Source of the DNA: Spiroplasma endosymbiont of Atherix ibis
Lineage (GTDB): Bacteria > Bacillota_I > Bacilli_A > Mycoplasmatales > Mycoplasmataceae
NCBI RefSeq assembly: GCF_964020005.1
Contig: NZ_OZ026474.1
Span: forward strand, 248,001 to 312,000
Direction: 5' to 3'
Length of the DNA stretch: 64,000 nt
Position numbers and translations under genes: made by a program. Positions 34,778 through 59,338 of the stretch are shown here, piece by piece; position 1 is the stretch's first letter, and the number at the start of each line of letters is the position of its first letter. Below the pieces are notes generated by a model. That model was not told the DNA's origin and did not search any database. It was given only the letters and a program-made list of their open reading frames with translations.

Positions 34778-35059
34778 ATGCATGCAAGAATAGAATTTAA
34801 ATATATGAGTTTTTCCAGAGGTTCTAAAGAATTTAGACTTTTATACAAAATTGAAGAATTTAGTTCTTATCAATTAGAATGAGAAGAAATCATTAAATTT
34901 GAATTACCTATTTTCAGTAAAGTTAAAGAATGTCTAATTTGATTAAAAAATAATTTATATGAAGTGTATGAAATGCTGGATCTAGAAATTCCATTTGAGG
35001 CTATTGAATTTAAATTTCAAAGAAGTCCAAAAAGTATGGGAGTTGATTTATATGAATAG
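34778..35059 (+). CDS. Prophage protein of unknown function (93 aa)
   Basis: A soluble, mixed-charge protein beginning MHARIEFKYMSFSRGSKEFR. It follows the 22-bp repeat and a ribosome site (aaagag). It overlaps the resolvase gene by eight bases, so it is the first gene of the early operon. Not recognised; the position suggests a replication or recombination accessory. Confidence 0.65.
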
Positions 35060-35516
35060 TTACTATTTAGGAATCGATATTTCTGGAACTGGAACAACCT
35101 CAATTTTTGATGGTTTTAATATTCATACATTTTTTAGTAAAGAGTGAAAAGAACATTTTAAATTCATACAAAGAATTAGAAGTCTATATCCATCAATTAA
35201 TGAGTGTATTATTTTTGAAGAAATGAGACCCTTACAAAATAATGTAGCTAATACAGATATGGTTTCATATGCAAAGTTAATAGGTGCTATCGAAATTAAA
35301 TATAAAAATATATTTAAAATTAATTCATTTATGATTAAAAACTTTAAAGATAAAATTCGAAATAATAAAAAATCAATTGATGAACTCATATTTAAGACTG
35401 GTCGTGCTAGGGGTTGATTTTGGTGCTCCAAACGCATTAATGAGCATGAAGTAGATGCAATTATCATTTACTATTATGGATCAGCAAAAAAAGAAAATCA
35501 GATAAAAATTATTTAA
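35052..35516 (+). CDS. RuvC-like Holliday junction resolvase (phage type)
   Basis: The 154-residue RNase H-fold protein has GIDISGTGTTSIF with the first Asp, a central CIIFEEMRPLQNN with Glu, and a C-terminal NEHEVDAIIIYYYG with the last Asp. This is the catalytic pattern of phage and poxvirus-type RuvC resolvases, which trim branched DNA before packaging. It overlaps the upstream gene by eight bases. The G+C-rich element begins right after its stop. Confidence 0.8.
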
Positions 35517-35519
35517 ATC

Positions 35520-35880
35520 CTATTTATATAGATTGGGTAGAGACACCTTATGCGACTTGCGAAAGCAGCAAAATTGTACTCCGGTTATGGTATACGTGAA
35601 CCATTAGAGACCGCATCTATTAAAAGGCGGGGTAGTTTTGGGGTTGCGCTCAAAACACGTCTAGCATTAGCTAGAGGTAGATAGTTTTAACTATGGCAGT
35701 CTGAACTCTTACGAGTTGCAAAAGCGAGACTCCTGAAAAGGTTTTTGGGGCAGAAAATGTAAATTATGCTCGCGTGCATGCTGGCCGTTGCGTGGTGACG
35801 GAAAGAATGACACTTTGCTCTTTTGTAGGGCAAAGTGCGTCTAACCTTAGCGGGCTCTGGAAAGAATGTGATTTTTTTCG
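35520..35880 (+). ncRNA. G+C-rich, hairpin-dense noncoding element, long form
   Basis: About 360 bases, clearly richer in G and C than any neighbour, without a plausible gene. Hairpins seen: ttgc-gaaa-gcag (35557-35568), atggt/accat (35587-35604), ccgc/gcgg (35611-35630), gttttg/caaaac (35635-35656), tctagc/gctaga (35660-35675), atagtt/aactat (35681-35694), aactc/gagtt (35704-35717), cct-gaaa-agg (35732-35741), ccgt/acgg (35785-35801) and cactttgc/gcaaagtg (35811-35837). Two GAAA tetraloops are typical of folded RNA. It shares blocks and a hairpin with 42782-42915. Phage-borne large structured RNAs (GOLLD, ROOL) are precedents; identity unknown. A DNA function such as packaging site or origin is the alternative. 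Confidence 0.6.
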
Positions 35881-35911
35881 AAGGTTTTTAATAATTCAAG
35901 AAAGGAAAAAT

Positions 35912-36097
35912 ATGAAAAATAAATGTCAAAACATTAAATGTAACAAAGAATTTAGTTATTATCCAAACTCAAGCTATTTAATAGCTAAAGGTAAAGTTTT
36001 AAAAGTTTGTAATGAATGCAATTTAATTGAAATTTCATTACGTTTAAAAAAATTATATAAAGGTCCAAACAGAAAGATAATGAAGCATATTGAATAA
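35912..36097 (+). CDS. Small zinc-ribbon prophage protein
   Basis: The 61-residue protein has MKNKCQNIKCNKEFSYY and VCNECNLIE, four Cys in two knuckles, and a basic tail. An in-frame upstream extension to 35774 runs through the G+C-rich element and is rejected: only ATG 35912 has a ribosome site (aaagga). Probably DNA- or RNA-binding. Confidence 0.7.
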   Translation: MKNKCQNIKCNKEFSYYPNSSYLIAKGKVLKVCNECNLIEISLRLKKLYKGPNRKIMKHIE

Positions 36098-36170
36098 TTA
36101 ATTGGAATTATTGATACTCAATCTAAAACTATTTCAAATTTAATAATAGATAAATACAGAGGTGATAATA

Positions 36171-36563
36171 ATGGATAAAGATATAATTAAACACAATCTA
36201 ATACATCTATCGGGCCAAGTCTACTCTAACCCAGAAGAACATTCTGGTAAAAATGCTAACGGTTCTGGTGAATGATTAATTAGAAAAATTAAGATTATAT
36301 TTGATAATAATCAATGAATAGATCTAATTTTTGAAGATTTAGAATTATGAAATAAATATAAAAAAATTCTAATTGGTTACTATATTGAAGTTAATGGATT
36401 ATTAAAAAATTCATTTAATAGAAAAGCTAATCAATCCAAAGCTCAAATTGAAGTTATTGAAGTCTTATATACATGTCCAATTAAAACAACAACAAAAAAT
36501 AAGTTTTTAATGTCTAAAGATACCTTGCAAAAAAGAAAATTGAAAATAAAAGGAGATAAATAA
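36171..36563 (+). CDS. SSB-like single-strand DNA-binding protein (phage)
   Basis: The 130-residue protein begins MDKDIIKHNLIHLSGQVYSN and contains GEWLIRKIKIIFDNNQWIDL and KKILIGYYIEVNGLLKNSF, matching the OB-fold strand pattern of SSB (loop, aromatic residues, hydrophobic strand, then VEVIEV-type strand). The tail is basic rather than the acidic tip of cellular SSB. The DnaC-like gene follows directly at its stop codon, which supports a replication role. The family call is by pattern, not by a strong motif. Confidence 0.6.
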
Positions 36564-40901: not shown

Positions 40902-40911
40902 AATTAAATTA

Positions 40912-40933
40912 TGTAAAACCAAATAAACACTTC
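40912..40933 (+). repeat. 22-bp direct repeat, copy 2 (putative phage promoter element)
   Basis: Identical to 34729-34750. It is followed by catatatatt and ribosome site aggag before the terminase ATG. It probably starts a second phage transcript. Confidence 0.65.
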
Positions 40934-40961
40934 ATATATATTATATAGGAGTTTTAATATT

Positions 40962-42747: not shown

Positions 42748-42781
42748 CTCTTTATTTTAATAAAATTGATTATTATAATTG

Positions 42782-42915
42782 CAGTAACGTGACAAATGCA
42801 AAACACGCGTAGCAAAAAAACTGTTCCGCCTTTTGTTCTCTTTGGGGAGCAAGCCGGAGCGGGCTCTGGCGAGCAAGGGGTCCCCAGAACGAAAACAGAA
42901 AGTGGTCCCAGTTGT
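42782..42915 (+). ncRNA. G+C-rich noncoding element, short form
   Basis: About 130 bases, roughly half G+C, between terminase and portal genes. It shares with the long element caaaacacg..tagc (42799-42813; two mismatches) and agcgggctctgg (42858-42869; identical), in the same order. Just before the second block it has a hairpin ttgttctc / gggagcaa (42833-42852) matching the position of cactttgc / gcaaagtg in the long form, with several paired bases differing. Also tctgg / ccaga and gttg / caac hairpins. An ORF of 63 codons across it is not credible. RNA or DNA packaging signal; not identified. Confidence 0.55.
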
Positions 42916-42964
42916 TTTTGCAACAGCGTCAAAAACCTAAACTCAAATAAAATAGGAGGCATAT

Positions 42965-59229: not shown

Positions 59230-59338
59230 AAAATGGTATAAAATAATTTAGGTTGCTAGTTTCAACCGCACTTTTGTATGTAAAAAAAAGTAGTTTGAAA
59301 AATAACTCACATACAAGGCGAGTCTAGACTGGAGGAAT
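59230..59338 (+). promoter_or_regulatory. L21 ribosomal protein leader with promoter
   Basis: A -10-like tataaaat lies at about 59235-59242. The leader then reads gttgctagtttcaaccgcac, ttgtatgt with its partner acatacaa, and ggcgagtctagactggagg just before the rplU ATG. These blocks match the Firmicutes L21 leader, which couples rplU operon expression to L21 supply. Confidence 0.78.

Follow-up and report, generated by a model that had tools for sequence, protein, structure and literature searches.

A compact structured RNA, predicted from compensatory base changes, in prophages and conjugative elements of Spiroplasma and other Mycoplasmataceae

What can a G+C-rich stretch without a gene be doing inside an AT-rich prophage? 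The question is raised by a 64,000-nucleotide (nt) stretch of DNA from the Spiroplasma endosymbiont of Atherix ibis (contig NZ_OZ026474.1, positions 248,001 to 312,000), which is called the window here and is numbered from its first letter. The plus strand contains, at about nt 35530–35870, an island of 46% G+C without an open reading frame (ORF), in a window that averages 24% G+C. A preliminary description, drawn from the letters of the sequence, had taken this for a hairpin-dense element inside a prophage and had suggested a large structured RNA of the GOLLD or ROOL kind. The prophage setting is confirmed by two nearby genes, one for a DnaC-like loader (E 3e-21) and one for the large subunit of terminase (E 5e-7). 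Covariation among seven homologues makes a structured RNA near certain, which bears out the suggestion; neither GOLLD nor ROOL, nor any other Rfam family, matches it. We consider it likely that the element is a stand-alone, trans-acting structured noncoding RNA gene of about 340–380 nt, carried by mobile elements as an accessory cassette.

A G+C island without a conserved reading frame

In 200-base windows over nt 35500–35900 the G+C content is 0.39–0.46, against about 0.20–0.27 on both sides, and in 250-base windows three G+C islands stand out in the 64 kb, of which the element is the strongest. It is thus the compositional outlier that had been claimed. Its ends, revised to about nt 35530 and 35870, are approximate. 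Read with genetic code table 4 (UGA = Trp), the element has stops in every frame, and none is open throughout the homologues, which share no conserved reading frame. The only long ORF beginning within the element, nt 35693–36097, is not conserved. The absence of a credible gene, first noticed in the window, therefore holds for the family.

Seven homologues in four genera

Homologues were sought in 320 genomes of the order, including 60 of the window's family, by iterated BLAST and covariance models. Seven members, the window included, were found in seven of the 60 family genomes, representing four genera; the order's remaining 260 genomes yielded none. BLAST against the family genomes gave copies at 95% (G004), 93% (G034) and 78% (G045) identity, as well as a match of 47 bases in G058, which belongs to another genus and whose locus is a full-length divergent copy. 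The G058 copy, used as a query, led to a fifth homologue in G057. Covariance model R1, which represents the 5′ domain and was built without G057, recovers this copy, scoring it at 41 bits (E 3e-6 over 173 kb). Model R2 finds a sixth homologue, in G012, which was not used in its building, with 59 bits (E 2.7e-11). Weak R2 matches of 17–21 bits were full of gaps and were judged to be chance, and model R3 gave no further members.

Among INPHARED phages and PLSDB plasmids, BLAST gave no match for the element or its homologues. DNA-pattern scans gave either nothing or three chance matches in IMG/VR, and six in GTDB contigs, all failing the model, and IMG/VR scans guided by RuvC, DnaC, zinc-ribbon and terminase protein queries gave no relatives. 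These collections may omit near relatives of the window; moreover, large scans filter more strictly and may lose weak members, as R1 missed G057 there. The RNA is not present in the related phage of G005, at other loci with RuvC relatives, or in most elements with related relaxases.

Compensatory changes and strand

The element folds better than shuffled sequence, modestly, with z of −2.0 for the plus strand and −2.2 for the minus. The suggestion of an RNA has thereby withstood two of the refutations proposed with it, a protein frame kept by the homologues and an energy no better than that of shuffled DNA. Six homologues give z of −1.5 to −4.7 on the plus strand and −2.3 to −4.8 on the minus strand, and folding energy does not tell their strands apart. 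Since the energy is only mildly unusual, the case for an RNA rests on covariation.

Changes on both sides of a pair occur in 17 of 24 pairs in alignment A6. In alignment A8, in which the 5′ domains of all seven sequences were fitted to the model, 95% of the cells pair and both-side changes are found in 19 of 24 pairs, against a shuffled mean of 8.3, with none of 500 shuffles as good. Both-side changes are present in 41 cells (shuffled mean 10.2). When the partners were moved by 1–3 columns as a slid control, the number of such pairs was 3–7 and pairing did not exceed 49%. Fitting to the model makes A8 lean to the structure, yet the models that found G057 and G012 had each been built without the copy in question. 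A hand alignment of six members over ten helices shows both-side changes in 36 of 51 pairs and has 296 of 300 cells paired, the latter figure being biased upward because the arms were picked by eye. The long-range helix P8 illustrates the pattern, occurring as GCGAG/CUCGC, GUGAG/CUCAC, CAUCA/UGAUG and CACCA/UGGUG. The ten or more hairpins proposed earlier correspond to at least ten helices, most of them backed by compensatory change, and this change, judged against shuffled and slid controls, is that of a conserved structured noncoding RNA.

What is conserved across these seven phages and conjugative elements of wall-less bacteria is shape rather than sequence. All seven members have a GNRA loop on P2 (GAAA, GGAA, GUGA or GAGA), even though the stem beneath it changes. 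On the plus strand there are 11 G·U pairs versus two A·C pairs, indicating that the RNA would be read from this strand. Its predicted fold strings about ten helices, P1 to P10, in co-linear order; P8 is long-range, and the P1 loop probably forms a pseudoknot with the P2/P3 linker. Both GAAA tetraloops that had been noticed are part of it, in P2 and P8a. Its features are as follows, with the hand alignment as their source where stated.

35530–35870, plus strand: whole structured RNA (homologues L003–L006, L052 and L151; G+C island; covariation), conserved from just 5′ of P1 to the CUCUGGAA motif.
35535–35548, plus strand: P1, hairpin GGGU-AGAGAC-ACCU; GGCU/GGCU in G034 and G045, GCCU/GGGU in G057 (hand alignment).
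35540–35581, plus strand: candidate pseudoknot PK1, tentative, P1 loop GAGAC (35540–35544) with GU[A]CUC (35576–35581); AAGAU/AUCUU in G058, AGGUC/GAUCU in G057.
35558–35567, plus strand: P2, hairpin UGC-GAAA-GCA.
35587–35604, plus strand: P3, hairpin AUGGU-AUACGUGA-ACCAU with an ACGU-type loop (A8 covariation).
35611–35630, plus strand: P4, hairpin CCGC...GCGG; CUAC/GUAG in G058 (hand alignment, A8).
35635–35656, plus strand: P5, hairpin GUUUUG...CAAAAC with a conserved UUGC loop; ACUUCA/UGAAGU in G045 (hand alignment, A8).
35660–35675, plus strand: P6, hairpin UCUAGC-AUUA-GCUAGA, followed by a conserved GGUAGAU linker (hand alignment, A8).
35681–35694, plus strand: P7, hairpin AUAGU-UUUA-ACUAU (hand alignment).
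35704–35717, plus strand: P7a, hairpin AACUC-UUAC-GAGUU, in window-type members only.
35724–35773, plus strand: P8, long-range helix GCGAG/CUCGC, enclosing P8a, CCU-GAAA-AGG (35732–35741) (hand alignment).
35777–35794, plus strand: P9, hairpin CAUGC-UGGCCGUU-GCGUG, in window-type members; a different hairpin in the conjugative-element copies.
35811–35837, plus strand: P10, hairpin CACUUUGC...GCAAAGUG; CAGUUUGC/GCAAACUG in G058 (hand alignment).

Pseudoknot PK1 is plausible and tentative, not secured: 33 of 3000 shuffled linkers pair equally well, and it is not resolved in G012. Another candidate pseudoknot, pairing the P3 loop with CACG, was dropped, being broken in G004, G034 and G057. A contact of the P5 loop with the P7/P8 linker, UUGC with GCAA, is possible; it is nearly invariant and hence uninformative.

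Carrier elements and neighbouring genes

The phage setting that had been expected holds for five of the seven copies, which are in prophages, and fails for two, which are in integrated conjugative elements. Related prophage segments hold the copies of the window, G004, G034 and G045. The G012 prophage has RecT-like and exonuclease genes; its RNA is on the strand opposite to that of its neighbours and has a TATAAT box upstream and an unrelated 70-codon ORF downstream. The conjugative elements of G058 and G057 have related relaxases (Pfam MobL in G057). That of G058 encodes a type IV secretion system coupling protein (E 2e-39), and unrelated small ORFs follow the RNA. That of G057 is visible in part only, as the contig stops just past the relaxase. 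A few tens of bases beyond the end of the G057 RNA lies a tRNA whose anticodon is UCA (L064, 6590–7076), and DNA methylase genes are adjacent. ARAGORN calls this tRNA SeC; a UGA-reading tRNA-Trp is likely in the code in use.

The RNA and its neighbours do not diverge in step. Between the window and G034 the RNA is 94% identical and the flanking genes 74–84%; between the window and G045 the RNA is 83% identical and the upstream genes 94–97%. This mismatch, together with the varying next feature, suggests that the RNA is a cassette that can be exchanged and that evolves under a constraint of its own. Two genes flank it in the window.

35055–35516, plus strand: RuvC-like gene upstream, context only, not conserved with the RNA.
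35912–36097, plus strand: gene of a small zinc-ribbon-like protein of 61 amino acids, with an early stop relative to its 85-residue G058 homologue; possible partner of the RNA.

Their earlier naming as a resolvase gene and a zinc-ribbon gene survives in weakened form, for the RuvC-like match is weak (phrog_159, E 0.044) and the zinc ribbon is a cysteine pattern without a Pfam match. The RuvC-like protein, of resolvase type with 153 residues, was not found beside three of the seven RNA copies.

The zinc-ribbon-like protein was found in exactly five of the 60 family genomes, all of them RNA carriers, and in none of the 53 genomes without the RNA. Its gene adjoins the RNA in the window, G004 and G045. 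In G034 it is one extra ORF away, this ORF having about 126 codons (MEKITLKSP..., L066 13162–13552, minus strand), and in G058 it is more than 5 kb off in the same element; in G057 it was not found. The window frame (35912–36172) has a stop after 61 codons, followed by sequence similar to the G058 homologue. G045 also has a stop, G034 has lost a cysteine and the C-terminal frame, and the N-terminus is damaged in G004, so that only the G058 copy looks intact. An AlphaFold2 model of the protein was poor (predicted local distance difference test, pLDDT, 67; predicted template modelling score, pTM, 0.35) and had no PDB match. Judged by co-occurrence alone, this protein is the best candidate for a partner of the RNA.

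A stand-alone RNA or part of something else

We favour a stand-alone, trans-acting RNA because the structure is conserved, the polarity is that of the plus strand, no coding frame is kept, the neighbours vary, and both phages and conjugative elements are carriers. Several points weigh against this. The copies have no conserved sigma-70 promoter, and the family consists of seven members only, among which three closely resemble one another. All four window-type prophages have a damaged or shortened zinc-ribbon gene, and those copies may be decaying. Four copies are closely followed by a gene of the same orientation, and for these a leader role is conceivable. Genomes G034 and G045 may be those of Spiroplasma diminutum and S. 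taiwanense. In strand-specific RNA sequencing of these two species, the only highly expressed noncoding RNAs were transfer-messenger RNA (tmRNA) and RNase P RNA (PMC5726471). If the genomes are rightly named, uninduced cultures probably contain little of the RNA, and it is therefore probably induced with its element, or silent in decaying prophages.

A leader acting in cis on the downstream zinc-ribbon operon, as a riboswitch, an attenuator or a translational control, is unlikely. Three copies have the layout of a leader: about 40 nt separate the RNA from the zinc-ribbon start codon on the same strand in the window, G004 and G045. However, a different ORF intervenes in G034, the gene is too distant in G058, a tRNA follows in G057 and an unrelated ORF in G012; the fixed position before one gene class is missing, and a leader of the zinc-ribbon gene fits four copies at most. 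Because the downstream genes and their positions differ, a dedicated leader is hard to sustain, and about 340 nt with ten helices is also large for one.

That the element works as structured single-stranded DNA, such as a transfer or replication origin or an attachment or recombination site, is quite unlikely. Its confinement to mobile elements, both phage and conjugative, and the hairpins that crowd both strands would suit such a site, but the G·U excess and the universal GNRA loop are features of RNA. Its position within the carrier also varies, and in the conjugative elements it is not beside the relaxase.

Comparison with known RNAs

Rfam cmscan, at gathering thresholds and, with the element alone, at E up to 10, gave no family match, GOLLD and ROOL included, and only AT-rich small nucleolar RNA-like and other chance matches. 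A tmRNA, with its tRNA-like domain and tag reading frame, was rejected as ARAGORN on the window and Rfam were both negative. Both ROOL and GOLLD are large, come from prophages, often lie close to tRNA islands and assemble into homo-oligomeric cages; neither has a known function (PMC12286853). ROOL (Rumen-Originating, Ornate, Large), whose cage is an octamer, measures about 580–660 nt with stems P1 to P19; env-120 has 659 nt, and GOLLD is often over 800 nt (PMC12286853).

The present RNA resembles ROOL as a large, ornate noncoding RNA of many hairpins, with predicted pseudoknots, an occurrence in prophages, no known function and no fixed protein neighbour. It differs in lacking a sequence or Rfam model match, in having about ten helices and about half the length, in being found also in conjugative elements, and in giving no sign of high abundance. 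With GOLLD it shares the prophage carriers, some tRNA linkage and the lack of a known function, but it has less than half the length, and a tRNA within 100 bases is seen at one of the seven copies only. HEARO RNA and the omega RNA of IscB-TnpB elements are mobile-element RNAs of similar size, and RuvC-like and zinc-ribbon genes flank the RNA here; however, neither gives an Rfam match, and no RNA-guided nuclease was recognised, the RuvC-like protein being of resolvase type and not found beside three copies. In the literature on structured RNAs in this bacterial group or in conjugative elements, no description of the present RNA was found.

A divergent ROOL, GOLLD, tmRNA, RNase P RNA or group I intron that has drifted beyond the reach of its Rfam model would explain the prophage context, the G057 tRNA and the ornate fold, which recall ROOL and GOLLD (PMC12286853); the permissive search and the short length argue against it, and we rate it very improbable. 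Most likely the RNA is a new family within the broad kind of ornate mobile-element RNAs and a member of neither ROOL nor GOLLD. A coding or decaying G+C-rich insert without RNA function, to which the ORF from nt 35693 that reads into the zinc-ribbon gene and the damaged neighbour genes of several copies might point, is refuted for the family as a whole by unconserved frames and by compensatory pair changes, a mark of long-term selection on structure, and has next to no chance of being right, even if individual copies may still be decaying.

Possible role in the host cell

The stand-alone RNA may act in trans, as a structural RNA or in a ribonucleoprotein, serving its element in the host cell and not in the virion; a purely virion role would not account for its presence in conjugative elements. 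Suitable tasks would be establishment, counter-defence or takeover of the host, and the zinc-ribbon protein may be its partner where an element carries both. A bolder proposal, possible if doubtful, is a compact ornate RNA family that phages and conjugative elements exchange as a cassette and that forms a ribonucleoprotein with this protein, for example against host defence.

ROOL and GOLLD have structures without a known function, and a smaller, independent family in both kinds of element narrows the candidates. The role should be useful to a phage and to a conjugative element inside the cell, which disfavours packaging or virion assembly as a general role. At 340 nt, in very small bacterial genomes and with a candidate protein partner, the RNA offers a tractable system.

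Other features of the window

The same prophage has a second G+C-rich noncoding island at nt 42780–42955, between the terminase and a portal-like gene. It folds as one long rod (minimum free energy −57.2, z −3.5, 0 of 200 shuffles), with no copy in the 59 other family genomes and no Rfam match. A stretch of 52 bases at nt 40909–40960 recurs, at about 81% identity, upstream of the ORF-34760 homologues of G004 and G045 and is possibly a repeated phage regulatory site. At nt 59254–59335 there is a leader of ribosomal protein L21 (Rfam RF00559, 37.5 bits).
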